Source: Aradus depressus
Lineage: Eukaryota > Arthropoda > Insecta > Hemiptera > Aradidae
Direction of reading: 5' to 3'
Length of the DNA: 64,000 nt
Assembly: GCA_963662175.1 (NCBI GenBank)
Contig: OY759215.1
Location: 47,199,213-47,263,212, forward strand
Both the position numbers and the translations under genes were made by a program. The stretch's first letter is position 1, and each line of letters begins with the position of its first letter. Under the pieces are notes generated by a model, which made no database searches, had not been told where the DNA came from, and saw nothing but the letters and a program-made list of their open reading frames with translations. Of the stretch, positions 5,977 to 62,054 are shown one piece after another.

Positions 5977-6051
5977 ATTATATTGTTTAAAAAGTACAGA
6001 AAAAACTTTTTTTTTAAAAAAACATTGTCTATATCACAAAATATATATAAT

Positions 6052-6089
6052 ATGGGAGTATTTTCGGTATTGCTATCATCTCCAGCCAC
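6052..6089 (-). ncRNA. Hammerhead-like module (decayed)
   Basis: Minus strand: stem I GTGG, box CTGGAGA (consensus A changed to G), extra T, hairpin around GCAA, GAAA (6065-6062), ATAC, TC, CCAT. Stem I GTGG/CCAT pairs with one G-U. The box change probably inactivates it. Confidence 0.45.
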
Positions 6090-6126
6090 GACTAAAACGT
6101 CAAAATGTTTTAGTATTTGTTAAGTC

Positions 6127-6171
6127 GTGGCTGAAGATAGCAATAGGTAGCAATACCGAAAGTACTCTCTT
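6127..6171 (+). ncRNA. Hammerhead-like module (stem II with internal duplication)
   Basis: GTGG 6127-6130, CTGAAGA 6131-6137, GAAA 6158-6161, palindrome GTAC 6162-6165, TC. A short tandem duplication (tagcaata/ggtagcaata) lengthens the stem II region. Confidence 0.45.
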
Positions 6172-6289
6172 TAAATTTATTTTGTGAAATGGGCAATATT
6201 TTTTTTTAAAAACATAGGTTTTTTCTTTACTTTTTATTAAGTGTATCACAATATCTCTGCAAAAAATGTTAACTATCATTATATTATTT

Positions 6290-6764
6290 GTTGTGACAAT
6301 ATAACAACTAATATATTATTTATTGATCGATATTTTCAGCAGTTATTATTATATATTAATAATCTCTCTCTCTCTCTCACTCTCTCTATATATATATACA
6401 TCAATATTATTATGTAATAATATATTGAAATATTATATTTTTTAAATTTGCACTGCTATATTATTTTCTTTTATCCCAAATTTCATTTATTGCGACAAAT
6501 TTAAGCTATCAAAGCATCTTAACATAAATGTTCCTTACCTTTTATAGTTCGTAATATTGATATTTTAGTTAAATTCACTACGTCGGTAAATATGATCAAT
6601 AATGTTGTAAAAATACAATGTTATATCTAAATATGTTTTTTTGAGTTGTTTTATTATTATTGGTTTTATTATATATATACCTTTTTGATTGGCGACACCA
6701 CTTTGTTTTTCTTCGAGAAAAAGTTCTTAGGATGAAAGTATCACCTTTGGCTTTATTCAGTCGT
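6290..6764. other. No gene; simple-sequence DNA
   Basis: AT-rich, with a CT-rich run near 6363-6387 and a TA run near 6388-6400. Nothing coding is seen. Confidence 0.5.
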
Positions 6765-7130
6765 TTATGCACAAAAAAAAAAAGTTTATCTTTGTGTCTG
6801 CGTTTGTGTGTGTATATTTGTGAACACGATAAATCCCGATAGAATAAATGTATCAACACGAAATTTTATACCAGAAGCCTCTGAGGACGACACCTATTGA
6901 TTTTCAGCTAAATCGGCCAAAAGGAATGTAGGGATTAGGGGAGGATGGGAGAAGTGCTCAGCTATCAATTTTCCGCGAAATCGATTGAAGAGATAGGGGT
7001 TCTACTCAAATATCCTAATAACTGCCCATTTAATAAATATATCAACACAAAATTTAGTATGAGTGTTCAGAAGCCACTAGTCAAGTTTCAAAAAGTCGGG
7101 AGTTCCAATTTGGGATTATGGCATATCACG
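6765..7130 (+). repeat. Rep-alpha copy
   Basis: Head 'gtttgtgtgtgtatatttgtgaacacgat' and two internal 'aatgaatgtatcaacac'-like units are present. It ends next to the Jockey relic at 7131. Confidence 0.65.
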
Positions 7131-7510
7131 GTCTACCACTTCTTCAGAGGATTGTGTGGCAAGTGTGGTGAAGAAAGGGAATGGATTTATAAATTTGTGT
7201 GTGAATGCAATTTGTTGTGAAAACGTCTGTAAAGGTCTTGAATTGTGTCGTCTACTGTGTTTATAATGAAGTCATTGTGGTGTGTTCTGTTACTTACGTA
7301 TGTTGGGCATTGTGTAATGAGTCTGAGTGTCGTTGACTGGAAAACCTGGATACGTTTCAGATTAGATGTTTTAGCCGAACCGTAAATTTGTGAACATTAT
7401 ATCCAGAGTGGTTTGAGTAGGAATGTGTAACAGTTATGCTTTTGTGTTAAATGTAGTTTTTTGAATGTAGAAGGGAATAGAGCATTTTAAGTCGTATATT
7501 TAAGCGTTTT
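7131..7510 (-). pseudogene. Jockey-type LINE reverse transcriptase C-terminal relic
   Basis: Minus-strand translation with stops gives LKPLWI, then SQIYGSAKTSNLKRIQVFQS and LRLITQCPTYVSNRT, closely matching the better copy at 27482-28159 (YGSAKTSNIKRIQAFQS, LRLITQCPPYINNRT). Several in-frame stops and small shifts show long decay. It covers the thumb and post-RT region only, as in a 5'-truncated copy. Confidence 0.75.
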
Positions 7511-7593
7511 TGGTATAAGAATGTTATGACTACATCACTATATATATATTCATTTTCTTTACATTTTTTTAAACTTTTTTTAATATAAATAAA

Positions 7594-7717
7594 ACCGAGG
7601 TCCTTGGTTTATTTTATCTGGGGGGTAAAATAAATTTAAGGACTCAGTCCTTCGAATGGGACGTTAAGCGATGGTCCCGAGCCTGTACGATGTCAGGTTC
7701 TCGTTGAAGACCCCTAT
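7594..7717 (+). repeat. SINE fragment, copy B
   Basis: Matches the SINE middle from just after box B ('ccgaggtcc') to 'gaagacccct'. Box A, box B and the 3' end are missing. Confidence 0.75.
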
Positions 7718-8345
7718 GGAAAACATGTCATGGAGGCCTAGTTAAATTCAAGTAGATGAATTTATCACCAAGTAAAATAGTATGAGTGACATAGGAACAT
7801 AGCGAGCGAAGAGTGATAAGAAGCAGTACTGTTCAAGATATTTAAACTCATAAAATCCTGGCATAAAAATTCTGTTTTATATTCATTCAACATTTTATAG
7901 AAATTCTTTTAATATGCAGTATACTGGTAATAGATAATTTCTTCAGGAATAAGTGTTTTTTTTTTTCCTTAGTCTTAAAAACACTTTTTTTATGTGTTAA
8001 AGATATAAATACTAGGTTGCAGTGCAGGAAATGGTAAAAAAAAATAAAAAATAACCTTGGCGGTTTACATTCCTTTCAGGTGCAGTTCACGTGTCTTCAA
8101 CAGTTTTTTTGTGCCAATGAAAAGAGAGAGGGGCTTGTTGCATTCCAATTATGCAACTGGCATCCGGACCGAAATTAAACTTTAATCTTTAGGTTTTTAG
8201 TAGAAGGGAATGGTAGATTTTGGGCCAAGGGCTTATGAGGGCTAAACCACCATAGTATCAATAAATACTGGAGCTCACTCTAAAAGGTCATGAAATCGGT
8301 GAATATTGGTATACTCTTCCCAACTCATCTCTTATCTTCCCCTCC
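7718..8345. other. No gene recognised
   Basis: AT-rich, with T and A runs. Nothing supported. Confidence 0.5.
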
Positions 8346-8356
8346 CTCCTCCCCAT

Positions 8357-8704
8357 AGGGCGCCGGTAGCTCAGTGGTATGCGCATTTGCCTTCCGAGCT
8401 CAATAGCGGGGGTTCGAAACCCGACCGAGGCCCTTAGTTTATTTTATCTGGGAGGTAAAATAAACTTAAGCACGTCGTCCTTCGTATGGGTCGCTAAGGG
8501 ATGATGCCAAGCCTGTACGATGTCAGGTACTCGTTAAAGACCCCCTACCCTAGGTGAATAAAAATTTAGGGTAGGCAAAATTTAGGACTCCCACAGTAGA
8601 GTCGGGCTCATGTCCACCAGAGTGACGAAAGAGCGCTCTGGTAGTAGGCAATATGACCTCGTAGTTAAAGCCCGGGCATGAGTCATGAAACCTAACATAA
8701 TCTT
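8357..8704 (+). repeat. tRNA-derived SINE, full-length copy C
   Basis: The best copy of the family. The 5' end gives 'gggcgccggtagctcagtgg', an RNA polymerase III box A (TAGCTCAGTGG, 8367-8377), and box B GGTTCGAAACC (8411-8421) at tRNA-like spacing. The tRNA-unrelated body follows, ending in 'aaacctaacataatctt'. A perfect 11-bp TSD, ctcctccccat, flanks it (8346-8356 and 8705-8715). With both boxes intact this copy could be transcribed. Its mobilising LINE partner is unknown. Confidence 0.92.
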
Positions 8705-8715
8705 CTCCTCCCCAT

Positions 8716-9689: not shown

Positions 9690-9690
9690 T

Positions 9691-12000: not shown

Positions 12001-12129
12001 ATTTGAAAGAAGAACACAACTCGTTTGCCGAGACTTCGGGAAAAAGGGCCTAGTATTGTTTATTATAGAATAAAAATCTGTTGCTGTGGTCTACCGATGA
12101 TCCCATCTGGGACGATCGGAGGTCGCCCC

Positions 12130-12875
12130 AGACCACTTTAGCTTCCTTCGCTGCGCTCCTTGGCGTGCGGAGAGAGCTCTTTATCAAGATGGGGCCTTGA
12201 CTTGCTGTACTACTGCGATGCGCTGGGGTCCACCGGCGATCGGCGGTCGCTCCCAGCCCAATTTAATTTCATTTGTGGCGCTCCTTGGTGCGTGGAGAGA
12301 GCTCTTTATCAAGATGGGGCCTTGACTTGCTGTACTACTGCGATGCGCTGGGTTCCACCGGCGATCGGCAGTCGCTCCTAGCCCAATTTAATTTCATTTG
12401 TGGCGCTCCTTGGTGCGTGGAGAGAGCTCTTTATCAAGATGGGGCCTTGGCTTGCTGTACTACTGCGATGCGCTGGGTTCCACCGGCGATCGGCGGTCGC
12501 TCCCAGCCCAATTTCATTTCATTTGTGGCGCTGCTTGGCGCGTGGAAAGAGCTCTTAATCAAGGGCTTTGGCTTGCTGTACTACTGTGATGCGCCGGGGT
12601 CCACCGGCGATCGGCGGTCGCTCCCAGCCCAATTTAATTTCATTTGTGGCGCTCCATGGTGCGTGGAGAGAGCTCTTTATCAAGATGGGGCCTTGGCTTG
12701 CTGTACTACTGCGATGCGCTGGGTTCCACCGGCGATCGGCGGTTGCTCCCAGCCCAATTTCATTTCATTTGTGGCGCTCCTTGGTGCGTGGAAAGAGCTC
12801 TTAATCAAGGGCTTTGGCTTGCTGTACTACTGCGATGCGTCGGGGTCCACCGCCGGTGTGCCTAGCCGACAGACG
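12130..12875. repeat. GC-rich 125-bp tandem array, six units
   Basis: The marker 'agagctcttwatcaag' recurs with unit starts at 12171, 12296, 12421, 12546, 12667 and 12792 (spacing 125, 125, 125, 121, 125). Two unit types exist: A (gagagagctctttatcaag) and B (gaaagagctcttaatcaag), in order A-A-A-B-A-B. Because 125 is not a multiple of 3 and stops are rare in this GC-rich unit, long overlapping ORFs arise in several frames. They repeat the same phrases in shifted frames and are not genes. Confidence 0.92.
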
Positions 12876-14224: not shown

Positions 14225-14356
14225 ATGGGGAATGGGGTGTATCAGCTCAAATGCAAATCAGAAAGTAAATTTAAAGAACGGATTAAATAAAAATCTGAAA
14301 TAATGAAAAAATCTACTAGAAATAAAAGACGTTGTCTTCCCACTGTTTTATTTTAT

Positions 14357-14398
14357 ACCAGAACCGGTTTTCGATGCAACAGCGTCATCATCAGTGGT
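14357..14398 (-). ncRNA. Hammerhead-like ribozyme module, best ACCGGT-type copy
   Basis: Minus strand, in order: stem I ACCA (14398-14395), box CTGATGA (14394-14388), extra T, stem II GACGC...GCATC (one mismatch; loop TGTT), GAAA (14372-14369), self-complementary ACCGGT, T, C (predicted cleavage after C14361), stem I TGGT (14360-14357). Stem I pairs perfectly. The conserved box, GAAA and T-H positions fit a type I hammerhead; the extra base after the box does not fit the canonical core. Confidence 0.6.
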
Positions 14399-14434
14399 TC
14401 ATCCCACCCACACAGCACAGCGGTTGGAAGATAA

Positions 14435-14469
14435 CTGGCGACGCTGTTGCGTCGAAAACCGGTTCTGGT
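14435..14469 (+). ncRNA. Hammerhead-like module, mutated box
   Basis: CTGGCGA in place of CTGANGA (14435-14441), perfect GACGC/GCGTC stem, GAAA, ACCGGT, TC, TGGT. The left strand of stem I is lost. Probably inactive partner arm. Confidence 0.4.
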
Positions 14470-14715
14470 ATAAAATAAAACAGTGGGAAGACAACGTCTT
14501 TTATTTCTATTAGAAATCTCGTCCCACAACATCTTACTATCACATATGAAAAAATCTACATTCGCTGTACATGTCAAAGATATGGGTCACTTATTCAACA
14601 AAGCAATGGGAATAATGTATCTCAATCTTTGTGAAAAAAATGTAGACAGCTTGACTCTCTGGAACAGTTGAACATTAATAGAAGGAACTCGAAAAAAATT
14701 GAAATTATTTGAACG

Positions 14716-15069: not shown

Positions 15070-15515
15070 CTCCCCAGGTATAGGGGAAGTTATGTATTCG
15101 GTCAGAAATTCTTTGTTGAGTTTTCACTGAAATTTCATGTTTTTTAATCTCTTAATTATAAAATTGAAAAAAAAAAAATTCATGTCTTTGTATGTGTCTG
15201 TGAATACTCCCGATAAAATGAATGAACACGAAATTTCATAATATTCAGAACACCATTGACGACACCTATCATCTTCAGCCAAATCGGTCAAATGGAAAGA
15301 GGGTATTTAGGGGTTGAATACAAAAGCTCTAATTAATATATGTAATGAATGTTTCAACACAAAGTTTAGTACACGGGTTCAAAAGTTCCTAATTGAGACA
15401 CGTATCCATTTTCAAGAAATCAGTAGGTACGTTAGATTCAGAGGGAGAGTAAAAACTTAGTAGATTAATTTGCACTGGAGAAGTCTCAGATGATTGATCG
15501 AAGATTCGTAAATAT
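15070..15515 (+). repeat. Rep-alpha copy
   Basis: Carries the head 'tataggggaagttatgta', the internal units, and the tail 'gagggagagtaaaaac' to 'tgattgatcg'. Reverse-strand ORFs entering it are incidental. Confidence 0.75.
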
Positions 15516-16664: not shown

Positions 16665-17650
16665 AAAAAAACTTATGACGGAAGGTTCAAGACCTAGGTA
16701 AATTTGTATTTAAAATTTTGCAAACTTCCGGGTTGGTGAATAAGTATATTTTGTTTTAGAAACGTTGGTATAATTGTTTGAAATATGCGTCTATGGGTGT
16801 GATGTTCCAGTCGCAGTGTAACGTCTTGTTGCTAACGTATGATGAGCGTTGTATCAGTCGCAGTGTTTTGATTGTGAATATCTGTATTCGTTTGATGTTC
16901 GAGGCCTTTGCAGTATCATTTGTAATCTATTGGTCCAGAGAGGTCGGAGAAGATAGTTGTAACAATTTAGTTTTCGTTGAGTCGATTATTTAAAACGCCC
17001 ATTCAAAATGCTATCGTCGCCAGTCTAGTGTGAGGGTTCCAAGTCAGTTCCTGCGAAGGTTAATCCTAAATATTTGAATATTGGGGAGCTCTCACCACAA
17101 CGGGGGGCGAATGTTACATGTTGACATTTTTTGGTGTTAAACTTAATTTTCCAAGATGTACTCCTAACTTTAATTTTGATGAGGTGTTAGGTTAGGTTAG
17201 GTTTTATGACTCATGCCCGGGCTTTAACTACGAGGTCATATCGCCTAGGTACTACCAGAGCGCTCTTTCATCACTCTGGTGGACATGAGCCCGGCTCTAC
17301 TGTGGGAGTCCTAAATTTTCCCTACCCTAAATTTTTATTCACCTAGGGTAGGGGTCTTTAACGAGTACCTTACATCGTACAGGCTCGGGACCATCGCTTA
17401 ACGTCCCATCCGAAGGACGGCGTGCTTAAGTTTACTTTACCTCTCAGATAAAATAAACTAAGGGCCTCGGTCGGGTTTCGAACCCACGATCTTGAGCTCA
17501 TTGATGAGGTGTTGCTGTAGTGTGAGTGATGCGGTGAGAAAATCTGCGTGAGAGGATAGAATAGTGGTGTCATCTGCGTATCTGATAATGTGTTAGGGAT
17601 GGTGGGTAAATCAAAAGTGTACATGAAGTAATATTGTGATAAAAATATTG
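16665..17650 (-). pseudogene. Jockey-type LINE reverse transcriptase relic, split by a SINE
   Basis: Minus strand: DLPTIPNTL then RYADDTTILSSH (YADD near 17590) and LTLQQHLI upstream of the SINE. After it come WKIKFNTKKCQHVTF, KYLGLTF, YNYLLRPLW and a decayed tail down to about 16665. It is the same family as 27482-28159 (WKIKLNTEKSQHITF, RYLGLTLNRR). Multiple stops and frame changes make it non-functional. Removing the SINE and one TSD restores continuity of the alignment. Confidence 0.8.
17189..17500 (-). repeat. tRNA-derived SINE, copy E (5'-truncated), in Jockey relic
   Basis: Runs from the SINE 3' end 'ttaggttaggttttatgac' to 'cttgagctca'. It includes box B but not box A. Perfect 13-bp TSD ttgatgaggtgtt at 17176-17188 and 17501-17513. 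Confidence 0.92.

Positions 17651-19765: not shown

Positions 19766-19801
<36 letters not shown>
19045..19801. other. No gene; poly-C and TA tracts
   Basis: Contains a C run at 19706-19726 and a TA repeat at about 19770-19800 that directly abuts the LTR element. Confidence 0.6.
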
Positions 19802-19804
<3 letters not shown>

Positions 19805-21351
19805 AGCATGTCTACCCTATAGATAATGCTCAGAACTGGCGATGTCTATGAGAGGATCGCGATCGCTAGGAGCAAAGTATGGGTTGTGTGGTGTTGAATA
19901 AACGAGAATTGCATTTGGAAGAGAATGCTCGGAACCAATGATGCCTGCGAGAGAATCGCGATCGCTGGGAGCGAAAATAAAGAATAATAGAGACACAATG
20001 GAAAGGAAGCCAAGATAATTGTCTACATCCGGTGTATAAGGAATAAGCAGTAAAGGTTTTTTTTCTTACTCCAGGTTTTCACACAACTAGAGGCAGATGT
20101 TAATTGGTAATATGCGATTGGCTGGAAATAAAATGGGCGGAGTCCGACGACCAATCAAGCCTGGAGAACTGTCCCCTACCACGGTCAGATATCGGAAGCC
20201 ACTCCCCGTTTTACTCATTCTTCGCTCATGTCTTGGCTGGTCACCACGTTCTTTTTATATTGTACAGTTGAGTTTAAATATGTGAATTGAGTTTTCTTCT
20301 TCGCTCATATCTTGGTGGATCACCACGTTCCTCTCTTTGTAAAGCCTAGTTTCAGTATGTGAAAGTACTTTCTTCGCTCATGTCTTGGCTGGTCACCACG
20401 TTCTTTTTATATTGTACAGTTGAGTTTAAATATGTGAATTGAGTTTTCTTCTTCGCTCATATCTTGGTGGATCACCACGTTCCTCTCTTTGTAAAGCCTA
20501 GTTTCAGTATGTGAAAGTACTTTCTTCGCTCATGTCTTGGCTGGTCACCACGTTCTTTTTATATTGTACAGTTGAGTTTAAATATGTGAATTGAGTTTTC
20601 TTCTTCGTTCATATCTTGGTGGATCACCACGTTCCTCTCTTTGTAAAGCCTAGTTTCAGTATGTGAAAGTACTTTCTTCGCTCATGTCTTGGCTGGTCAC
20701 CACGTTCTTTTTATATTGTACAGTTGAGTTTAAATATGTGAATTGAGTTTTCTTCGTTCATGTCTTGGGTGATCACCACGTATCTTTTCTATAAGTAAAG
20801 TTTAGTTTGAATATGTGAATTAGTCGTAGAGACACACTTTGATTTTGGACGGTGCAAAGTCAGTGGGGGTGTAACTTCTGGTGTGCCCTCGAAACTACGC
20901 AGATCTTCAGGGACTATGTGAATAGACGATTTCTACGGGAAGTCCAGAAAGGGTGATCACGCCGTCATTCGCCATGGATATCGTATCGAGGTACCTCGTA
21001 ATTAAGTTATAATTCAGTCCTTCAGACACACGGCCAAATTATATATATATTCAATTGTTGTTTTGTAAATATGTTCTCATTAAAATAAATATGTTAAAGT
21101 TATAGGTTTGATTCATTTCATTTCCCCCCCACTCATGCTTCTTCTGGTTGACAACAGTAATTAATTATTGTTAATTACTGATGTCAACTAACCGTTAGGA
21201 TCTTGTAACCGTTCTTCCCGTGGGAGTGCTTTCAGCTATTCAGGCATTGTTTAATTAAAGTCGCGATTTAAATAATTTTCAATTTTAATAATTTTTCGAT
21301 CTCAATTTTATTTATTTTATTAATTACGTGTTTTGCACTCACACAGGGAGG
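19802..21351 (+). repeat. 5' LTR
   Basis: Starts TGTAGC. Shared sequence with the 3' LTR ends at 'cacacagggagg'. It contains the 152-bp tandem array and a late 'aataaa' (about 21083) that may be the polyadenylation signal. A 62-codon ORF repeated in both LTRs (20097, 24751) is incidental. Confidence 0.92.
20221..20820 (+). repeat. 152-bp tandem repeats inside the 5' LTR
   Basis: 'ttcgctcatgtcttggctgg' starts at 20221, 20373, 20525 and 20677 (period 152). Each unit is two related halves (about 79 and 73 bp), marked by 'ggctggtcaccacg' and 'ggtggatcaccacg'. The last unit is partial and diverged. Confidence 0.93.
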
Positions 21352-24440: not shown

Positions 24441-24453
24441 GGGAACGGGGGAT
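24441..24453 (+). promoter_or_regulatory. Polypurine tract
   Basis: GGGAACGGGGGAT immediately before the 3' LTR is the expected plus-strand primer, with one pyrimidine inside. Confidence 0.65.
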
Positions 24454-24455
24454 AT

Positions 24456-26005
24456 TGTAGCATGTCTACCCTATAGATAATGCTCAGAACTGGCGATGTC
24501 TATGAGAGGATCGCGATCGCTAGGAGCAAAGTATGGGTTGTGTGGTGTTGAATAAACGAGAATTGCATTTGGAAGAGAATGCTTGGAACCAATGATGCCT
24601 GCGAGAGAATCGCGATCGCTGGGAGCGAAAATAAAGAATAATAGAGACACAATGGAAAGGAAGCCAAGATAATTGTCTACATCCGGTGTATAAGGAATAA
24701 GCAGTAAAGGTTTTTTTTCTTACTCCAGGTTTTCACACAACTAGAGGCAGATGTTAATTGGTAATATGCGATTGGCTGGAAATAAAATGGGCGGAGTCCG
24801 ACGACCAATCAAGCCTGGAGAACTGTCCCCTACCACGGTCAGATATCGGAAGCCACTCCCCGTTTTACTCATTCTTCGCTCATGTCTTGGCTGGTCACCA
24901 CGTTCTTTTTATATTGTACAGTTGAGTTTAAATATGTGAATTGAGTTTTCTTCTTCGCTCATATCTTGGTGGATCACCACGTTCCTCTCTTTGTAAAGCC
25001 TAGTTTCAGTATGTGAAAGTACTTTCTTCGCTCATGTCTTGGCTGGTCACCACGTTCTTTTTATATTGTACAGTTGAGTTTAAATATGTGAATTGAGTTT
25101 TCTTCTTCGCTCATATCTTGGTGGATCACCACGTTCCTCTCTTTGTAAAGCCTAGTTTCAGTATGTGAAAGTACTTTCTTCGCTCATGTCTTGGCTGGTC
25201 ACCACGTTCTTTTTATATTGTACAGTTGAGTTTAAATATGTGAATTGAGTTTTCTTCTTCGTTCATATCTTGGTGGATCACCACGTTCCTCTCTTTGTAA
25301 AGCCTAGTTTCAGTATGTGAAAGTACTTTCTTCGCTCATGTCTTGGCTGGTCACCACGTTCTTTTTATATTGTACAGTTGAGTTTAAATATGTGAATTGA
25401 GTTTTCTTCGTTCATGTCTTGGGTGATCACCACGTATCTTTTCTATAAGTAAAGTTTAGTTTGAATATGTGAATTAGTCGTAGAGACACACTTTGATTTT
25501 GGACGGTGCAAAGTCAGTGGGGGTGTAACTTCTGGTGTGCCCTCGAAACTACGCAGATCTTCAGGGACTATGTGAATAGACGATTTCTACGGGAAGTCCA
25601 GAAAGGGTGATCACGCCGTCATTCGCCATGGATATCGTATCGAGGTACCTCGTAATTAAGTTATAATTCAGTCCTTCAGACACACGGCCAAATTATATAT
25701 ATATTCAATTGTTGTTTTGTAAATATGTTCTCATTAAAATAAATATGTTAAAGTTATAGGTTTGATTCATTTCATTTCCCCCCCACTCATGCTTCTTCTG
25801 GTTGACAACAGTAATTAATTATTGTTAATTACTGATGTCAACTAACCGTTAGGATCTTGTAACCGTTCTTCCCGTGGGAGTGCTTTCAGCTATTCAGGCA
25901 TTGTTTAATTAAAGTCGCGATTTAAATAATTTTCAATTTTAATAATTTTTCGATCTCAATTTTATTTATTTTATTAATTACGTGTTTTGCACTCACACAG
26001 GGAGG
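24456..26005 (+). repeat. 3' LTR
   Basis: Nearly identical to 19802-21351; one difference noticed (gaatgctcgg versus gaatgcttgg). It carries the same 152-bp array at 24875-25474. Confidence 0.92.
24875..25474 (+). repeat. 152-bp tandem repeats inside the 3' LTR
   Basis: Same array, copy number and unit variants as 20221-20820, including the shared 'ttcgttcatatc' variant of the third unit. Confidence 0.92.
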
Positions 26006-27123: not shown

Positions 27124-27345
27124 TGGGTTTATATGGGACAATCGGGACGAAAATTTAGGGAACGAATCAAAGACCATCCGAAATATGAATATCAATCTTC
27201 ATTCACTAAGCATATCAATGATATGAGTCACATGTTCAACGAAGCAACGAAAATAACATGTCTGAATTTTTGTGTATAATTTTATATTGAGACTCTCTTC
27301 TAGAACAGCTAGAAATTGACAGAGTCAAGAAAAATGGGAATTGTT
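27124..27345 (+). pseudogene. Penelope-like element GIY-YIG endonuclease relic
   Basis: Reads WVYMGQSGRKFRERIKDHP, the YIG-side motif (consensus YIGQTGRxFxxRxKEH), then SSFTKHINDMSHMFNEATK before a stop at about 27281. It aligns with 14546-14700 in the C-terminal half. The GIY strand and all RT sequence are absent. Confidence 0.75.
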
Positions 27346-27478
27346 TACATTAATATAATACATTGTGTATTTATTTATTGTACATATTGTGTACACATTT
27401 ATTTTATTATTCCATATGGCCAATATTTATTTTATATACTGTTTGCTCTATTATGAATACAAATTCTTTAGTTAATTT

Positions 27479-28488
27479 GCCGCCATCTTAGCTGCTGCTG
27501 ACCTTCACATACACGCCTCATTTACACTACAACACCATCTCACACAAATTGAAAACTGGTGCAACACATGGAAAATCAAACTAAATACAGAAAAATCACA
27601 GCACATCACATTTACACTTCGACGAGAAACATGCCCCCCCGTTTTCATCTACGACAAGCCCCTCCCTCAAACTAATACTGTACGATACCTAGGACTGACA
27701 TTGAATCGAAGACTGACATGGAATCCTCACACACGTCTCACACGAAACACGCTGAACCGTCGACTCAAAATACTCTACGGACTTCTAAATAGACGATCAA
27801 AATTAGACATGACACAAAAACGGAACTGTTATACTTACTTACTCAGACCATTATGGACATACGGATCACAGATATACGGTTCAGCAAAAACATCCAACAT
27901 CAAACGAATTCAGGCATTTCAGTCAAAAACCCTCAGACTGATAACACAATGCCCCCCATACATAAACAACAGAACACTTCATAACGATCTTATGATACAC
28001 ACAGTATCCGACACAATACAAACTATTTACATACGTTTTTTTAGAAAACTTTACACACATACAAATCCAGAAATACATACTTTATCTTCACAACACTTAC
28101 CACAAAACCCCCCACGAAGGTTGAAGAGGAGGTGGAACCGCGACTTACTGCCACCTTAATTCCTATTCGTTCTTAATATTTTTATTTTTTTTTATTCTTT
28201 TACATTATTTTCCTTCACTTTTATCATCTCTCTTACCCATTCCATCAAAGTTGTCTTTCAATTCCTTTTTATTATTTTTTTTTTTAAAATTATTATTATT
28301 ATTATTTATTTATTATTATTTTTTTTTTTTTCCCTTGTCCTTATAATTAATAAAAAATTTTCGTCCCGAGGACCTACCACTGGGTGGCCTTCCTCTCACA
28401 TGCCATTCTCGCCAACGTCTCCATACCTACCAACATAGATGCTGGTTGTTGCCCCCTAGCAACAGTTGCATCTTTATGAATAAAAGCC

Positions 28489-28519: not shown

Positions 28520-28718
28520 AATTTAAATTTCTTAATAATATAATTTTTTTTTTTAGAGTTTGTTTTCAAGTCAAATATTTTAGTTATTATTTTCCGTTAT
28601 GTCAGGATTTCCTCCTTCCATGGGGCATACCTGGTGGGTGGGGAGTTGCAACCTCAGATAGCCTCAGAATTGTATAAATCAGCCAACGTAACAAACTGAA
28701 ATGTTACTTTTCATCTTT

Positions 28719-28752
28719 GTACTGAAGACGACAAAAGCCGAAACCGGTACAT
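28719..28752 (+). ncRNA. Hammerhead-like module, decayed
   Basis: CTGAAGA 28722-28728, extra C, weak GAC/GCC hairpin, GAAA 28740-28743, palindrome CCGG, TA. Stem I is mismatched at its first pair. Confidence 0.35.
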
Positions 28753-31068: not shown

Positions 31069-31330
31069 AATAATAGAAAAAAATGTATATTTTTATAAAT
31101 ATTCTTTGCTTCACATAATATCTCTTCCAGGAAAAACCCCGTGGGGGCTGGAAAAAGAGCAGTTTGGATTGTAAACTTCTTGAACTTCCATTTAGTATTT
31201 GTTAAGTCGTGGCTGAAGATGCAATACCGAAAATATTCCCATATTTTATTTATATCTTGTGAAATAGAAATATTTAAAAAATCAACGTTTTTATTAAGTG
31301 TTTCACAATATCTCTGCAAAAAATGTTAAG
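31069..31330 (+). mobile_element. Ribozyme-like element, GTAC type, single arm (262 bp)
   Basis: Shares 'ttagtatttgttaagtcgtgg' and the end 'cacaatatctctgcaaaaaatg' with 5989-6277. Perfect 12-bp TSD tgaaatacatta at 31057-31068 and 31331-31342. The left third has no inverted counterpart. Confidence 0.8.
31209..31242 (+). ncRNA. Hammerhead-like module with deleted stem II strand
   Basis: GTGG 31209-31212, CTGAAGA 31213-31219, then only 'tgcaatacc' before GAAA 31229-31232, ATAT, TC, CCAT. Stem I pairs but stem II cannot form. Confidence 0.45.
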
Positions 31331-32917: not shown

Positions 32918-33232
32918 ATCTTCTGAGCTCAAGATCGTGGGTTCGAAACCCGACCGAGGCCCTTAATTTATTTTATTTGGGAGGTAAAATAAACTTAAGC
33001 GCGCCGTCCTTCGGATGGGACGTTAAGTGATGGTCCCGAGCCTGTACGATGTCAGGTACTTGTTAAAGACCCCTACCCTAGGAGAATAAAAATTTAGAGT
33101 AGGCAAAAATTAGGACTCCCACAGTAGAGTCGGGCTCATGTCCACCAGAGTGACGAAAGAGCGCTCTGGTAGTAGACGATATGACCTCGTAGTTAAAGCC
33201 CGGGCATGATTCATAAAATCTGAACCTAGACC
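32918..33232 (+). repeat. tRNA-derived SINE, copy G (5'-truncated)
   Basis: Begins near 'tgagctcaagatcgtgg', keeps box B GGTTCGAAACC and the complete body. TSD tataaaataat at 32907-32917 and 33233-33243. AAT microsatellites lie on both sides (32775-32812 and after 33236). Confidence 0.85.
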
Positions 33233-36354: not shown

Positions 36355-36483
36355 TAATATATTTCATGGTACTTAACATTTTTGCAGTGCTATTGTGAAG
36401 CACTTGATGAAAAATATAAAGAATAATGTATATTTTTTTAAAATATTGTCTATTTCACCAAATATTATTGGAATTTAAAATAT

Positions 36484-36521
36484 ATGGGAGTACTTTCGGT
36501 ATTGTTACCATCTTCAGCCAC
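36484..36521 (-). ncRNA. Hammerhead-like ribozyme module, best GTAC-type copy
   Basis: Minus strand: stem I GTGG (36521-36518), box CTGAAGA (36517-36511), extra T, stem II GGTA...TACC around ACAA, GAAA, palindrome GTAC, T, C, stem I CCAT (36487-36484). All stems pair, with one terminal G-U. Confidence 0.6.
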
Positions 36522-36555
36522 GACTTAACAACCTCCATTTAGTATTTGTTAAGTC

Positions 36556-36593
36556 GTGGCTGAAGATGGTAGCAATACCGAAAGTACTCCGAT
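36556..36593 (+). ncRNA. Hammerhead-like module, opposite arm
   Basis: GTGG 36556-36559, CTGAAGA 36560-36566, GGTA/TACC with a GCAA loop, GAAA 36580-36583, GTAC, TC. Stem I is weakened to one good pair (CCGATAT on the 3' side). Confidence 0.5.
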
Positions 36594-36929
36594 ATATTTT
36601 ATATATTTTGGGAAATAGACAATATTTAAAATAAAACAAACGTTTTTTTATATTTTTTAATATATTTCCGTTTTGTTTTCAATTTCATTTACATCCTCAT
36701 CATCAAGTCGTCTTCCCCTCGTCAACACTCTGTAACATATCACTTACACAAGATAGTGGATGTCATAACTTTGGTCCTAGAAATAAAATTATGTGCAATG
36801 AGGGGAAGTGCTTGATGTGAGTCTTAACCGACTTTGGCATGCAGAACTTCATTGGTGGTGGTACTGCTGCATCTGCTTCGGCTGTCGAAATCGATAAGGC
36901 TTTAAGATGAATGCCAAAATTGGTTTCTT

Positions 36930-38356: not shown

Positions 38357-38374
38357 ATAATATTATATTTAATA

Positions 38375-38714
38375 GGTTAGGTTTTATGACTCATGCCCGG
38401 GCTTTAACTACGAGGTCATATCGCTTACTACCAGAGCGCTCTATCGTCACTCTGGTGGACATGAGCCCGACTCTACTGTGGGAGTCCTAAATTTTGCCTA
38501 CCCTAAATTTTTATTCATCTAGGGTAGGGGTCTTTAACGAGTACCTGACATCGTACAGGCTCGGGACCATCGCTTAACGTCCCATCCGAAGGACGGCGTG
38601 CTTAAGTTTATTTTACCTCTCAGATAAAATAAACTAAGGGCCTCGGTCGGGCTACGAACCCACAACCTTGAGCTCAGAAATCAAGCACGCATACCACTGA
38701 GCTACCGGCGCCCT
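38375..38714 (-). repeat. tRNA-derived SINE, full-length copy H
   Basis: Minus strand starts 'gggcgccggtagctcagtgg' at 38714 and ends 'aaacctaacct'. Box A is intact; box B is GGTTCGTAGCC, mutated. An 18-bp repeat, ataatattatatttaata, flanks SINE plus adjacent TA tract (38357-38374, 38765-38782), best read as the TSD with TA expansion on the 5' side. Confidence 0.9.
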
Positions 38715-38724
38715 TGATATATAT

Positions 38725-39771: not shown

Positions 39772-40255
39772 GCCTTCTCTGTCAACATTCTGATATTTAT
39801 CTGTTCAAAGTGGTCCAGCTATATTATGCAGTTCCTTCTCTGTCAACATTCTGATATTTATCTGTTCAAAGTGGTCCAGCTATATATGCAGTTCCTTCTC
39901 TGTCAACATTCTGATATTTATCTGTTCAAAGTGGTCCAGCTATATTATGCAGTTCCTTCTCTGTCAACATTCTGATATTTATCTGTTCAAAGTGGTCCAG
40001 CTATATTATGCAGTTCCTTCTCTGTCAACATTCTGATATTTATCTGTGTAAAGTGGTCCAGCTATATTATGCAGTTCCTTCTCTGTCAACATTCTGTTAT
40101 TTATCTGTTCAAAGTGGTCCAGCTATATATGCAGTTCCTTCTCTGTCAACATTCTGCTATTTATCTGTTCAAAGTGGTCCAGCTATATATGCAGTTCCTT
40201 CTCTGTCAACATTCTGATATTTATCTGTTCAAAGTGGTCCAGCTATTATTCGCGG
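39772..40255 (+). repeat. 60/61-bp tandem array, eight units
   Basis: 'tgtcaacattctg' starts at 39780, 39841, 39901, 39962, 40023, 40084, 40144 and 40204. Units differ by single bases and by ATATTA versus ATATA at the joint. The ORFs reading FLLCQHSDIYLFK in shifted frames come from this repeat and are not genes. Confidence 0.95.
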
Positions 40256-41100: not shown

Positions 41101-41250
41101 CTATTTTAGGGAATGTAAAGATGGCTGATAAAGTAAGAAGTGATTATTTCACAAGTCGTATAATAAAAACTTAGTCTGGCTTCTCACAGGTTTCGTTATT
41201 GTGCTACCCGACTTTCTAGGTTGTCATCATCATTATGTTGTCTGATAAAA
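41101..41250 (-). repeat. Decayed ribozyme-bearing repeat, GCCGGC type
   Basis: 'gaatgtaaagatggctgat' and 'agaagtgattatt' match 57966-58020. 41201-41240 carries a decayed minus-strand module (ATGATGA box, GAAA, GTCGGG). Confidence 0.5.
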
Positions 41251-41728: not shown

Positions 41729-41789
41729 AGGACTATGTTGTTGGTTGTTTCCGGCATTTTTTCCTCCAGGGGTGTCTTCTTATTTTTTG

Positions 41790-41829
41790 GACGATATTTC
41801 GGGACAATTACAGGTCCCTTCTTCTGGTG
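41790..41829 (-). ncRNA. Hammerhead-like module, GTCCC type, left arm
   Basis: Box CAGAAGA (41826-41820; U4 position is A), extra A, stem II GGGAC/GTCCC, GAAA (41800-41797), TA, TC. Stem I has a mismatch at pair 3. Confidence 0.4.
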
Positions 41830-41863
41830 ACTATGAACATACATACGAATGTATGTTCATAGT

Positions 41864-41903
41864 GACCAGAAGAAGGGACCTGTAATTGTCCCGAAATATC
41901 GTC
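41864..41903 (+). ncRNA. Hammerhead-like module, GTCCC type, right arm
   Basis: Stem I GAC 41864-41866, box CAGAAGA 41867-41873, extra A, GGGAC 41875-41879 with GTCCC 41888-41892, GAAA 41893-41896, TA, TC, GTC 41901-41903. Stems I and II pair fully; the box departs from CTGANGA at one position. Confidence 0.45.
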
Positions 41904-41992
41904 CAAAAAATAAGAAGACACCTCTGGAGGAAAAAATGCCGGAAACAACCAACAGTGGAACATCCCAGAGAAGTTTAAGAAACACAAGGACT

Positions 41993-42615: not shown

Positions 42616-42695
42616 TATCTGAGAGCATGATGATGAGTGCAACCTCAAAAGCCAGCTAGCACATATAATAAAATATGTGAGAAGTCAGACTACGT
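42616..42695 (+). repeat. Decayed GCCGGC-type ribozyme-bearing fragment
   Basis: 'gatgatgagtgcaacctc', 'aaagccagctagcac' matches the 58062-58098 module in reverse; GAAA has become AAAA and the box starts ATGATGA. Confidence 0.45.
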
Positions 42696-43194: not shown

Positions 43195-43311
43195 CATCCT
43201 CAGCCAAAAGCATAAGAGATAAGACAATAGGGCAGAGATAAGACAAGGCTTATCAGTCTTATCTCTTATGCTTTTGGCTGAGGATGGTAGAAATACCGAA
43301 AGTACTCCCAT
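43195..43311 (+). repeat. GTAC-type ribozyme-bearing repeat with a different hairpin core
   Basis: Arms 43195-43225 and 43256-43286 (31 bp) pair perfectly. The right side continues into 'taccgaaagtactccc' and, past 43311, 'cacaatatctctgcaa', as in the other GTAC-type copies. The usual 'cagccacgacttaac' core is replaced. Confidence 0.65.
43274..43311 (+). ncRNA. Hammerhead-like module, GTAC type
   Basis: TTGG 43274-43277, CTGAGGA 43278-43284, extra T, GGTA/TACC with AGAA-rich loop, GAAA 43298-43301, GTAC, TC, CCAT 43308-43311. Stem I has three pairs; the box fits CTGANGA with N=G. Confidence 0.55.
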
Positions 43312-57965: not shown

Positions 57966-58103
57966 TATGGATATATTAGAAAATGTGAAGATGGATGATA
58001 TAGTGAGAAGTGATTATTATATAGATTGCAAAATAAAAACTCACAAATTTTATTATTATGTTCTAGCCGGCTTTCGAGGTTGCCCTCATCATCAGGCAGT
58101 CTA
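57966..58103 (-). repeat. GCCGGC-type ribozyme-bearing repeat
   Basis: Shares 'atgatatagtgagaagtgattatt'-like sequence with 41101-41160 and carries the best module of this type. Confidence 0.6.
58062..58098 (-). ncRNA. Hammerhead-like ribozyme module, GCCGGC type
   Basis: Minus strand: TGC (58098-58096), box CTGATGA (58095-58089), extra T, stem II GAGG-GCAA-CCTC (GNRA tetraloop), GAAA (58075-58072), palindrome GCCGGC (58071-58066), T, A. The 3' side of stem I reads GAA here; the 42.6-kb relative has GCA, which pairs fully with TGC. Confidence 0.55.
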
Positions 58104-58326
58104 CAAAAAAACCATCATTTAGTAAAAAGGTATATAAATTCTAATGGTTAAAATAAATAGGTAAAAAATACTGACTATGCCTTAAAATTAATAGTTTTTA
58201 ATAAATAAATTCATTAAATATGTAAATATGATAATAAAATAAAAACCTTCAACAATATCTTATTGTACTTATTGTTCTTGGGCGTACTTTGCACGTCTGA
58301 CTTTCCACCTAGCGTTGCCTAGAACT

Positions 58327-58510
58327 GAGGCGTCTACCGTCGCCAAGCATATATTAGCTGAGAGGCTGGCCCATGCCTAGCACGTAATAGCTGAGGCGTC
58401 TACTGTCGCCAAGCATATATTAGCTGAGAGGCTGGCCCATGCCTAGCACGTAATAGCTGAGGCGTCTACTGTCGCCAAGCATATATTAGCTGAGTGGCCG
58501 AGTTTACCTT
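58327..58510 (+). repeat. 66-bp tandem array, about 2.7 units
   Basis: 'gaggcgtctac' starts at 58327, 58393 and 58459; units are nearly identical. Confidence 0.92.
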
Positions 58511-58548
58511 GGAGCTTCCAGTAGCACAGATTTGAAAAAAATATTGTG

Positions 58549-59111
58549 ATAAATAAATAAAACAAACTTAACTTAATAAAACAAAGAATCTACATGCATC
58601 AAATATCTCCATTATTGCTCAAAAAGCAGGCTACTTGATGGCTTGGAACAATTAGAAATAAATAAAGCTACCAAAAAGAACATTTGTATGAATGACCAAG
58701 TTTATTTCAACTATTCCCCTTTGTTAACACCCTGAACCAGTTCTGTTTTCACATATATGTTTGTATTATCTGTTATTAGGTACTATTTGGCTCGACATAG
58801 TATATGTTTCATGTTATCTAACTCTTTATATTATTATTAATTTTATTTCTATTTTTATTATTTATTTGTATTTTTACTTATTTATTTGTTATTTTTTAAC
58901 GTATTAGTCTAATGATATTGTTTTATGTAAATTTAGAACTAAGTTTAGTTCTTGTTCAGGAAATATTTCATAAGATAGCTAACGGTACAGCCGGGGGACT
59001 CCCAAGTTGTAATAGCACCCTTTCACCTGAGATGTATTTGAAGGGTCGCTCTCTGCAAACTAACTTAGTTCATAACTAGACCTGACGATGGTGTAAGGCC
59101 GAAACCGGTAG

Positions 59112-59165
<54 letters not shown>

Positions 59166-59257
59166 TTAGTGGAATAGACAATATTTCAAAAATAAGTTTG
59201 TTTTATTTATTTATTACAAGTTTCCACAATATGTCCGCGTTCCTCAACTTAGAAGTT
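58549..59257. mobile_element. Ribozyme-bearing foldback, CCGG type (709 bp)
   Basis: Short inverted ends 'aaataaataaaacaaactta' (58551-58575) and 'gtttgttttatttatttatt' (about 59195-59214). Imperfect 15-bp TSD (58534-58548, 59258-59272; 14 of 15 match). It includes a TA tract at 59115-59163 and the terminal phrase 'gaatagacaatatttcaaa' of the GTAC group. Confidence 0.55.
59079..59113 (+). ncRNA. Hammerhead-like module, CCGG type
   Basis: GAC 59079-59081, CTGACGA 59082-59088, extra T, GGT/GCC stem, GAAA 59101-59104, CCGG, TA, GTT 59111-59113 (stem I with one G-U). Confidence 0.5.
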
Positions 59258-59272
59258 GAAAATAATATTGTG

Positions 59273-60129
59273 CACTACCTATGGGGAGCCATTGAATTCT
59301 AAATCTGTCTTTCCTTCTTAGAATAACGGTATGTAAACGAAAACTCCACGAAACTGTGAACACTTGAAGACAGCTAAGCGGCGTCATTTTTGGCCAAAAC
59401 AGGGAGGAAGGCGCCTTTAATAATTTAATAACAAAACACTCCAAGATGACGAAGTGAAAATATTTCTCTGAGTTTGACAAAGAAACAATTTAGACATGTC
59501 CTTAAAGTCTATAAAAAGCTTAGTGCTGATGTTGTACCGCCGTTTTGGTAATGCCGCCACTTGCTATGATGAAGATGACATTCTTGTCCTAGGGTTTACA
59601 ATAAACAATCTAGCTACAGACAGACAGACTGACTGTTGGCACCCAATACAGTGTCATGGAGTCATGTTGCGATTCCTCAAATCGATTGTGCTTCAATTTG
59701 AAAGCAGCCTAACGAGAAAGCTTCTGAGATAATTAATCATCTCAGTTTAAGCTCCATATCCTAGAATTATTCAAGAGTTTCTCTAGATGCTTGGGTACCG
59801 GTGTTGAGCACTGTTTGAAATGTCATATCTACTAATTAATTATGGAAAATAGCGCTCAAGGTCCCACATGTGGAAACCCATCCCAGAGGATGCACATGTG
59901 GAAACCCGTAGCGAATATTTGATTATGAACTTTCTGTAATCCTATAGTTGAGGAAAAATATTATAAAGAAAGAAAGTGCATTTTTGTTTTTATTGATAGC
60001 ATAAAAGAAAAGTTTATTTTCATAAAGGTATATGGTAGAAGTTAAATATATGGGAGAGGTGCAGAAAAAAAGTGTTCGTCAATAAAGCATCCCTATCGTA
60101 CTTTCTCAACTACAAAATTTAGTTTACTT
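59273..60129. other. No gene recognised
   Basis: 'catgtggaaacccatcccagag' is partly repeated at about 59865-59910. Nothing else. Confidence 0.45.
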
Positions 60130-61190
60130 TCTCTGCTTTACGAAGTATGAGGGAAGTTATGTAATTGATCAACAATTTGATGCGAAAATTTAATTGGAAT
60201 TTCATGTTTCCCACCTCCTTATTTCAAAAAATTAAAAGAATAAAAAAAAAATGTTCTTAATCTGGAATTTTTTCATACATTTATTCTATCGGGAGTTATG
60301 GTGTTCGCAGACACAAACTGGAAACTGTGTATCCAAAACACTCTAAGGACAACATATATTGATTTTCAGCCAGATTAGGTTAGAGGCTTAACGCAAAAAC
60401 TCTAATAACTGCCGTTGTAATAAATGCATTGACATGAACATTCATAAGGGCGCCGGTAGCTCAGTGCTATGCGTGCTTGACTTCTGTGCTCAAGTACGTG
60501 GGTTCGTAACCCGACCGAGGGCCTAAGTTTATTTTATCTTGGAGGTAAAATAAACTCAAGCACGCCGTCCTTCGGATGGGACGTTAAGCGATGGTCCTGA
60601 GCCTGTACGATGTCAGGTACTCGTTAAAGACCCCTACCCTAGTTGAATAAAGATTTAGGGTAGGCAAAATTTAGGACTCCCATAGTAGAGTCGGACTCAT
60701 GTCCACCAGATTGACGAAAGAGCGCTCTGGTAGTAGGCGATATGACCTCGTAGTTAAAGCCCGGGCATGAATCATAAAACCTAACCAAACCCAAAATTTC
60801 ATAGGTAAATTCAATGCCCTCTAAAGACGACATCTGTCAGTTCTCAGCGGAATCACCTTAAGGGGGGGGGGGGGGGGGGGGGAGGGGCTTAACTCAAAAA
60901 TCCCAATTGCTGCCAATTCTATCTCTACATGATATATATTTAAATTCAAAACCACATAAGGATGTCACCTATTAATATTCCGCGAAATCGTTCGAAGGAA
61001 GGGGGAACGGAGTCGACTCAAATGCCCTAAAAACGGCCGATGTAATGAATGTATCTACACAAAATTTAGTATGAGATTTCAGAAGCCACTATGTAAGTCA
61101 AATATTGATTTTTAGAGGAAGAGAAAAAACGTAATTAATTCGTGTTGGGGACGTACATAGCCGGTGATTCACCTACGACATTTTGTTTTT
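60130..61190 (+). repeat. Rep-alpha copy, interrupted by a SINE
   Basis: The head at 60145 ('tatgagggaagttatgtaat') runs to the tail 'gccggtgattcacc' at about 61160-61173, with a 21-bp G run at 60862-60882. It is split by the SINE at 60447-60786. Confidence 0.8.
60447..60786 (+). repeat. tRNA-derived SINE, full-length copy K
   Basis: Box A TAGCTCAGTGC (60457-60467) and box B GGTTCGTAACC (60501-60511) each have changes from copy C. The body is complete to 'aaacctaacc'. Flanks share only about 'ttcata', so the TSD is eroded. Confidence 0.9.
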
Positions 61191-62012
61191 TAATTGTCAA
61201 TTTAGTAACTTTTCGATACAAATTTGATCACATTAAGTTGGAAAAGACATAGAGCCACGAGGGTAAACCACATATTTCAAAGGTTTAACGGTTTTCTAAC
61301 TTGTTCTATAGATACCCTCTTGTTACGTGTTCTAATAGTATTTCCTGTCTTCTCATACAAATATTATTTGTATTTTTAGTATTGAGATCTCCCCAAATCT
61401 CCCTTTTGAGAATTGTGTTGAGTTCATCAAGATTTTGTTTTTTAATATGTTCCTTAAAGTTAAATGTTAAGGTAATTCCTTCCTGATTTTATATCGCAGT
61501 TTCTTCTATATTGCCTTGAATAAGCTTTAACGGGATATTTGTCGCCACGTAGTCTGGCACTGAATATCTCTGCTTACATATCTTCATAGGTCCTTTGGTT
61601 CTTATTTCCAAAATAAAAATAGTAATTCTAACATTAAAAATTAACTTTCGTAATACGATGTGAACCATAAAATCTCTTAAATAGATTTTGAGCTAACATG
61701 TTTGATAATAATAATAAAAAATTTATTTCCGTTAGACCAATACATGGTAATAGGATACGTCAAAAGAATTTATACATTAAGATATAGATTTATAACTACT
61801 TGAGTCTAACACACCTATGATTTAGTAATAATAACAAAACTATTTAAAAAAAAGTAAAATGAAATTAATAAAAACTGAACAAATAATACATTAAAATATA
61901 TGAGTGTATAAACAAACTAATACAAGATACGTTTATAATAAGTACACATTTTTCAATTCAAGAAAAAATAAGATAACTATTTTTCAAAAAACTCTTCGGA
62001 AGTGTCTTTATC
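61191..62012. other. No gene recognised
   Basis: AT-rich, with AAT and poly-A runs. Confidence 0.5.
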
Positions 62013-62014
62013 CC

Positions 62015-62054
62015 AACGATTTTTCGGGATGTTCTTATGTCCCTTCATCAGGTC
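62015..62054 (-). ncRNA. Hammerhead-like module, related to the GTCCC type
   Basis: Minus strand: GAC (62054-62052), box CTGATGA (62051-62045), extra A, GGGA...TCCC stem, GAAA (62025-62022), AA, TC, GTT. The box is canonical here, unlike the 41.8-kb copies; stem III is not self-complementary. Confidence 0.5.

Follow-up and report, generated by a model that had tools for sequence, protein, structure and literature searches.

Minimal type I hammerhead ribozymes of Penelope-like elements (PLEs) were reported by Cervera and de la Pena (2014) and by Lunse, Weinberg and Breaker (2017), both as cited in PMC7761336, where they are proposed to cleave as dimers. The modules described here share with them, as they are portrayed in that article, the type I order, a reduced stem III, location in pLTRs and dispersal throughout the genome; in this comparison, which covers the features other than the extra base and the palindromic stem III, no difference is shown. 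The Anolis Poseidon element (PAc), as described in PMC11167929, has in common with the elements of this genome the tandem copies with pLTRs and a protein combining reverse transcriptase (RT) and GIY-YIG endonuclease, but its ORF begins at stem II, whereas at our loci L043 and L044 the module ends 117 nt before the first ATG of an ORF. Penelope copies of Adineta vaga (PMC3846280) likewise have pLTRs inverted head to head, with palindromes where they join; here the junction carries a divergent pair of modules, and in the A. vaga article the word hammerhead occurs nowhere. In the plus-strand hammerhead of Chrysanthemum chlorotic mottle viroid (CChMVd), too, A9 and stem II are separated by one extra base, an A instead of the U that prevails here, and according to the review PMC3705267 changing this A to U raised cleavage in trans 3-4 fold; kinship with a viroid is not implied. 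Metazoan retrozymes also carry type I hammerheads in repeats, according to PMC7229834 in tandem units of about 170-400 nt, of which none was found in the stretch analysed here.

Detection of the modules

A stretch of 64,000 nucleotides from the genome of Aradus depressus (the window) was searched with a strict descriptor consisting of CTGANGA, 0-2 nt, stem II and GAAA, in which one stem II mismatch was tolerated. There were seven matches, five of them with a palindromic stem III. First-order Markov resamplings (n = 20) gave 0-3 matches (mean 0.55) and none with a palindrome. Five control box/tail pairs were applied to the real window sequence: four found nothing and the true box with an altered tail matched twice, again without palindromes. 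When one mismatch was allowed in the box or in the tail, the number of matches was no longer discriminating (32 vs 10-28), but the palindromes still were (9 vs 0-4). One strict match, at 15278 (-), lies outside the earlier list of loci and appears to be due to chance.

As the first-pass annotation had proposed, the window was also searched with a model made from the modules. This model, R1, was built from 14 modules, six of them from the window, and lists 15 window matches assigned to the motif. Eight have E <= 0.01 (6053-, 14360-, 36485-, 36552+, 43270+, 58063-, 59074+ and 62013-), all of which except 6053- and 62013- were training rows. The weaker ones are 6123+ (E 0.011), 31205+ (0.027), 42619+ (0.12), 28714+ (0.34), 41859+ (2.7), 14427+ (3.9) and 41788- (4.9). 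Three further matches (20890-, 25544- and 14123-) appear to be chance, and because such matches reach E 2-2.4, the comparably weak ones at 41.8 and 14.4 kb rest on sequence and not on score. The motif was found at all ten loci listed in the first-pass annotation, and 42619+ is an addition to that list. These motifs are genuine and more frequent than expected by chance. Their density is not peculiar to the window: R1 found eight in 64 kb, compared with 15 in 200 kb taken from 20 other places. No hammerhead family was among the matches of an Rfam scan of the window, and RF00163 gave zero matches over this genome, as it did in every control genome. Rfam matches to the micro-RNA precursors MIR400, MIR396 and MIR6462 fall on the palindromes; all were below the gathering scores and were rejected.

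The window modules are not 15 independent cases but belong to about six or seven families. The features are as follows.

5988..6236, family A head-to-head palindrome, one module per arm (inverted self-match)
6053..6093 (-), family A module, box CTGGAGA (R1 E 0.0027)
6123..6170 (+), family A module, enlarged stem II (R1; sequence)
14312..14514, family B palindrome (inverted self-match; among 67 listed genome matches, 25 are 100% over 81 bp)
14360..14402 (-), family B module, CTGATGA T GACGC/GCATC GAA AACCGGTT C, stem I ACCA/TGGT (R1 E 9.8e-6, training row; sequence)
14427..14466 (+), second arm of family B with damaged box and perfect stem II GACGC/GCGTC (R1; sequence)
14483..14700 (+), C-terminal remnant of a Penelope-like endonuclease, next to the family B palindrome or partly under it (tblastn E 2e-7, two pieces, two frames)
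27127..27273 (+), GIY-YIG endonuclease remnant (tblastn 45% identity, E 2e-9)
28714..28752 (+), weak family C module, stem II GAC/GCC mismatched, palindrome ACCGGT, stem I not in register (R1; sequence)
31205..31241 (+), family A module, stem II partly deleted (R1; 85% to the 36.5 kb copy)
36410..36657, family A palindrome (inverted self-match; genome copies 85-93%, best 40 of 261 candidates scored)
36485..36525 (-), family A module, GGTA/TACC, AGTACT, H17 = C, stem I 4 bp (R1 E 4.9e-7, training row)
36552..36592 (+), family A module of the other arm, stem I run of 1 (R1 E 6.2e-7, training row)
41112..41233 (+), family E pLTR remnant without full module (74-76% to L025, L028 and L044)
41739..41954, family D palindrome, 97% self-complementary (self-match; among 65 listed genome matches, 29 divergent pairs)
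41788..41834 (-), family D module, box CAGAAGA, GGGAC/GTCCC, ATAT (R1; sequence)
41859..41905 (+), family D module of the other arm, stem I GAC/GTC (R1; sequence)
42619..42659 (+), family E module remnant, new (R1; loose probe match)
43195..43286, family A partial palindrome (inverted self-match)
43270..43310 (+), family A module, stem I 3 bp (R1 E 1e-6, training row)
57982..58139 (-), solo Penelope-like pLTR, family E (75% to L025, in which it follows a GIY-YIG frame on the 3' side)
58063..58103 (-), family E module, GAGG/CCTC, AGCCGGCT (R1 E 2.1e-8, training row)
58588..59214 (+), 5'-truncated Penelope-like element of family F, the endonuclease C-terminus being followed by the pLTR (84% to L027 over 643 columns; protein of 58589-58708 85% identical)
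59074..59113 (+), family F module, ACCGGT, stem I GAC/GTT (R1 E 5.2e-7, training row)
62013..62059 (-), family G module, GGGA/TCCC, no palindromic stem III, stem I GAC/GTT, by eye like family D (R1 E 0.0058; sequence)

The loci at 6.1, 31.2, 36.5 and 43.3 kb are copies of one repeat, and head-to-head palindromes, a feature absent from the first-pass annotation, occur at five window loci. The type I order of elements which that annotation had given for the modules is present, but most copies look worn and several are decayed: the box is altered at 41.8 kb and in one arm at 14.4 kb, stem II is incomplete at 31.2 kb, enlarged at 6.1 kb (+) and mismatched at 28.7 kb, and the 62.0 kb module has no stem III palindrome. 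In stem I the hammerhead register fails at 28.7 kb and at 58.1 kb, where a single pair is kept. Family A resembles the pLTR of family F (72-75%, E 2e-6 to 1e-4), the aligned part including the motif itself.

Folding of the modules

In a set of 14 hand-picked modules, near relatives included, 91.1% of the stem II cells were paired, compared with 72.7% after shuffling, and the covariation score was 0.657 vs 0.291; neither value was reached in 500 shuffles, and slid registers scored at most 0.187. Two further measures of covariation lay within the shuffles (double-change pairs 197/500, further pair types 495/500). Stem I runs of at least three pairs were seen in the hammerhead register in 10 of 17 distinct modules, related rows included, and in 0-1 of 17 in shifted registers. 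The earlier observation that pairing is kept while the sequence changes thus holds in that stem II covaries and the register in which stem I pairs is mostly that of a hammerhead. Stem II had at least three pairs in 34 of 43 candidates with an exact box and a palindrome. The core CUGANGA and GAA are found in order around stem II, with a degenerate box in the 41.8 kb copies and some others of the window. In the 17-module set, for which A15.1 and U16.1 formed part of the selection, H17 was A in 11, C in four, T in two and G in none. Pairing of AACTA with TAGTT around the 59.1 kb module as an alternative stem I was rejected, as it uses U16.1-H17.

In the type I hammerhead consensus stem II directly abuts A9, though not universally. 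In 34 of 37 palindrome-bearing modules (loose-probe matches with at most 20% errors, merged with three positions from sequence and R1) it does not, and an extra base, mostly U, precedes stem II. We do not hold this base to exclude the modules from the type I class, because the CChMVd hammerhead is reported with an extra base (PMC3705267). Folded as monomers, families A and E and the L003 module are predicted to form a pair between the extra U and G12 that would disturb the core, and transcripts of whole palindromes are predicted to form one long hairpin that would block the hammerhead. In the predicted dimer fold of family E the palindromic stem III clearly pairs between the strands; several other lowest-energy dimer folds pair differently, and these speak neither for nor against the dimer model.

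Linkage to Penelope-like elements

The best 20 of 150 listed GIY-YIG matches (1852 candidates) were inspected for modules. At 18 of these Penelope-like loci there was a module on the coding strand, 118-404 nt 3' of the GIY-YIG domain; the other two, L023 and L040, have other endonuclease sequences and no module. Families E (58.1 kb) and F (59.1 kb) of the window are motifs of these elements, and in the window itself the family F endonuclease C-terminus lies 365 nt ahead of the 59.1 kb module. L043 and L044 contain three ORFs, 827, 838 and 832 aa long, which are open where the sequence taken for inspection ends. In the L043 ORF Pfam recognized both RVT_1 (1.7e-12) and GIY-YIG (1.7e-6); most of the homologues listed for it are RVT_1/PF26215 proteins, and GIY-YIG is present in some. 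A Penelope-like ORF with both domains is thus present at L043, whereas the window yields endonuclease remnants only. Tandem or inverted pLTR organisation is seen in four same-strand GIY-YIG pairs spaced 2819 bp, in L044 and in the divergent module pairs.

The repeat of family D (41.8 kb) flanks a truncated Penelope-like gene elsewhere in the genome: on C11 its arms enclose 1.2 kb whose encoded protein shares 28% identity with the L043 ORF over 185 aa (E 4e-18, a single-comparison value); Pfam found no domain at E <= 0.01 in this insert. Family B adjoins an endonuclease remnant and family C lies 1.4 kb 3' of one; no PLE ORF was linked to B, C or G, and for G no endonuclease remnant was seen either. 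Of the 12 open frames listed in the window ten were scanned with Pfam, which gave RVT_1 at 27.5 kb and otherwise weak matches below the curated cut-offs. The reverse transcriptase ORF at 27476-28156 was rejected as a PLE gene; its homologues, judged from their sequences, look non-LTR.

Orientation of paired modules

At the loci examined, with the merged positions used for the extra base, opposite-strand module pairs were divergent in 14 of 14 cases, and among the listed genome matches in 59 of 59. The best 40 candidates were scored of 261 for family A, of 1498 for family D and of 921 for family B. For family B the count used 57 of 67 listed matches, ten pieces of 25-31 bases having been dropped; with all 67 there were 28 divergent, no convergent and six same-strand pairs, pieces that belong to one copy being counted repeatedly. 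One pair of family B arms is spaced more widely, by about 1.4 kb, on C1. The one same-strand pair of family D consists of two pieces of one place. Divergent pairs fit inverted pseudo-LTRs of truncated copies.

Discussion

Judged from their sequences, the modules are very probably minimal type I hammerhead ribozymes of Penelope-like elements, which encode RT and GIY-YIG endonuclease in one protein, and the window would hold mostly decayed pLTR remnants of such elements. We favour this because families D, E and F tie to PLE loci and A resembles F. The link to Penelope-like hammerheads suggested in the first-pass annotation is supported by the covariation of stem II, by the register of stem I and by the position of the modules in PLEs of the same genome. 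In a tandem transcript the palindromic stems III of two modules would pair, each core would then cut after U16.1-H17, and a unit-length RNA of about 2.8 kb would be released. Extreme 5' truncation that left pairs of inverted pLTRs behind is the most likely origin of the palindromic loci.

The motif could instead be kept in PLEs as a structured RNA for protein binding or template recognition, self-cleavage being secondary or lost. According to PMC11167929 cleavage of the Anolis PLE hammerhead required the addition of protein, insertion in vitro was unchanged in cleavage mutants and zero reads ended at the cleavage site; the same article states that a PLE hammerhead had earlier been found to cleave itself at 3-25 mM Mg2+. 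In addition, families whose stems differ share the core letters and the A15.1-U16.1 palindrome, as catalysis would require, in sets pre-selected for box and GAAA, and we consider this alternative unlikely. The listed matches of families B and D include numerous divergent palindromes that resemble one another and have clustered spacers, as would be expected if the palindromes were ordinary foldback or MITE-like DNA elements with hammerhead likeness as a by-product; but the same core occurs in unrelated families and in the pLTRs of PLE copies, and one family D pair flanks a PLE gene fragment, which makes such an origin very improbable. Least probable of all, and hardly to be expected, is that the modules come from non-LTR retrozymes spreading as small circular RNAs. 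Retrozymes house most classical animal type I hammerheads, as stated in PMC7229834, but the genes linked to the modules are PLE genes. The small circular RNAs offered as an alternative in the first-pass annotation found no support, as the 39 tandem-repeat rows of the window include no array in which ~170-400 bp units carry a module.

Penelope-like hammerheads are an already described kind, known from many animal genomes; what is added here is the extra base before stem II and the uniformly divergent pairs. Rather tentatively, the palindromic units of families B and D may be non-autonomous mobile elements with a divergent hammerhead for each strand, multiplied whole by the PLE protein, their hammerheads having an inserted base before stem II, often the U that speeds the viroid hammerhead. 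The role of the hammerhead in Penelope-like elements is called unknown in PMC7761336. With its tandem and head-to-head copies containing long ORFs, its many decayed copies, several hammerhead families and constantly divergent pairs, this genome is suited to asking whether cleavage shapes PLE integration or the inverted repeats.

Modules in the window

The first-pass annotation had counted about fifteen hammerhead-like modules at ten loci. Sequences in the described order (stem I, CTGANGA, a single base, the stem II hairpin, GAAA, usually a palindromic stem III, T followed by A/C, stem I) are present, but grouped by flanking similarity and stem sequences they fall into families A-G and thus represent six or seven cases, not fifteen:

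6.1, 31.2, 36.5 and 43.3 kb: family A
14.4 kb: family B
28.7 kb: family C
41.8 kb: family D
58.1 kb: family E
59.1 kb: family F
62.0 kb: family G, resembling family D by eye

The stem I register is not kept at 28.7 and 58.1 kb, the box at 41.8 kb reads CAGAAGA, part of stem II is gone at 31.2 kb, and the module at 62.0 kb has no palindromic stem III.

By itself the CTGANGA box has 45 occurrences in the window, versus 23.6 expected. A strict descriptor (CTGANGA, a stem II with a minimum of 4 pairs and one mismatch permitted, GAAA) gave 7 matches, five of which were followed by a palindrome beginning at the last A of GAAA. Twenty Markov resamplings yielded 0-3 matches (mean 0.55), and five control box/tail combinations yielded 0 in four cases and 2 in one; no palindrome was found in either control. 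When one mismatch was permitted in box or tail, the 32 matches were not separated from the 10-28 obtained by chance, thus the decayed modules rest on their likeness to intact ones. The Rfam scan of the window proposed in the first-pass annotation detected no hammerhead family, and a genome search with RF00163 gave no match, just as it gave none in any control genome.

Stems and fold

Covariation in stem II, also claimed previously, was evaluated in A2, an alignment of 14 hand-picked modules from the window and the genome, and was upheld by two measures but not by two others. Paired cells amounted to 91.1% (72.7% in shuffled alignments) and the covariation score was 0.657 (0.291 shuffled), values reached by 0/500 shuffles in both cases; with the stem II partner slid to other registers the score was at most 0.187. 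Measures counting pairs or types were not above shuffles (197/500 and 495/500). For stem I, modules were selected by box, GAAA, palindrome and stem II, with nothing of stem I required. A run of at least 3 pairs at the hammerhead register was found in 10 of 17 distinct modules, some of which are close relatives, versus 0, 0, 1, 0, 0 and 0 of 17 at six shifted registers. H17 in these modules was A in 11, C in 4, T in 2 and never G. Several predicted monomer folds contained stems I and II together.

In the textbook hammerhead, stem II follows directly after A9. Of 37 palindrome-bearing modules, 34 have one base between CTGANGA and stem II. This base is T in families A, B, E and F, A in families D and G and in one module of the neighbouring locus L002, and C at 28.7 kb. 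In predicted monomer folds of families A and E and of the module of locus L003, the extra U is paired with G12. The CChMVd plus hammerhead is described as likewise having one extra base, A10, at this place, where families A, B, E and F have T; changing A10 to U is reported to raise trans cleavage 3-4 fold, C or G being harmful (PMC3705267). Novelty of the extra base is not claimed.

Link to Penelope-like elements

Minimal type I hammerheads without helix III are reported to be dispersed by the thousands in animal genomes and to lie in the pseudo-LTRs (pLTRs) of Penelope-like elements (PLEs), with a role described as unknown (PMC7761336, PMC6155905). For a protein-assisted PLE hammerhead, mutation is reported to be without effect on in vitro insertion (PMC11167929).

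Among the best 20 of 150 listed GIY-YIG matches in the genome, 18 loci had a module in the orientation of the GIY-YIG frame and 118-404 nt past the domain. Neither of the other two, L023 and L040, had such a module; their endonuclease sequences are different. The modules belong to families E and F, as at 58.1 and 59.1 kb. Loci L043 and L044 contain three near-identical ORFs (827, 838 and 832 aa, truncated at the stretch boundary); in two of them the ATG lies 117 nt after the module end, and no module was found before the ATG of the third. One matches RVT_1 and GIY-YIG and has 361 homologues, the 120 listed being 27-39% identical, mostly with RVT_1 + PF26215 and in some cases GIY-YIG; their named sources are arthropods, flatworms and other animals. 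Related sequences in the window are:

58588-59214: 5'-truncated family F element with endonuclease C-terminus (84% DNA, 85% protein identity)
27.1 and 14.5 kb: endonuclease remnants (protein comparison)

An alignment of the family A motif and flank with the pLTR of family F gives 72-75%. On contig C11 a family D pair encloses 1.2 kb (L046) with an ORF matching the L043 ORF in a single comparison (28% identity, 185 aa, E 4e-18); a Pfam search of this insert found no domain at E<=0.01. No link to an ORF was seen here for families B, C and G. Judged by sequence, the modules are a well-supported case of a known kind, the minimal type I hammerheads of PLEs, with cleavage predicted.

Abundance and other repeats

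The window sits on contig C2 of a 697.7 Mb genome. R1, a search model from 14 modules (6 from the window), was run on 284 kb comprising the window, L002 and 200 kb from 20 fixed places. At E<=0.01 it gave 24 matches (11 of them training rows): 8 in the window, 1 in L002 and 15 in the 200 kb. The window is ordinary for module content. Scaling gives roughly 50,000 matches per genome, an order of magnitude only because the matches cluster.

Other features of the window are:

19798-21351 and 24452-26005: direct duplication, 1554 bp, 99.94% identical, a 152-bp tandem array in each copy
3831-4149, 8387-8704, 17189-17500, 32920-33228, 38373-38715, 60447-60791: dispersed ~320-bp repeat, about 90-96% identical, both orientations; also in PLE loci L023, L028 and L044
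2-3370 (-): 1123-aa open frame that continues past the left end; on visual inspection a non-LTR reverse transcriptase
12113-12852: tandem array, 125-bp units
39773-40246: tandem array, 61-bp units
27476-28156 (+): RVT_1 fragment (under the curated cut-off), located after the endonuclease remnant at 27.1 kb and before the module at 28.7 kb; homologues include an aphid protein

Palindromic pairs

Five window loci are inverted repeats in which the 5' side of stem I faces the centre and the cleavage side faces outward. In the loci examined all 14 same-family opposite-strand pairs at most 1.6 kb apart were divergent. Among the genome matches listed, 29 (family D), 12 (A) and 18 (B) pairs were divergent, three of them common to the 14 above, and none was convergent; restoring ten dropped pieces of family B still gave no convergent pair among the matches listed. 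For Penelope elements, inverted pLTRs arranged head to head, with a palindrome at the junction, have been described (PMC3846280), and extreme 5' truncation of PLE copies would leave such inverted pLTR pairs.

Among the matches listed, 24 of 29 family D spacers lie between -12 and 24; family B spacers fall at 27-28 (5/18) and 94-102 (9/18). At least 25 of the places listed, on contigs C1 and C5 of the genome (G000), match the family B arm with 100% identity over 81 bp, which suggests recent multiplication. Because spacers are clustered and the family B arm is identical in the places listed, some of the palindromes may be propagated as whole units. The predicted fold of a whole palindrome is one long hairpin, thus ribozyme formation is not expected in a read-through transcript; if transcription instead diverged from the palindrome centre, the ribozyme could, we infer, form.
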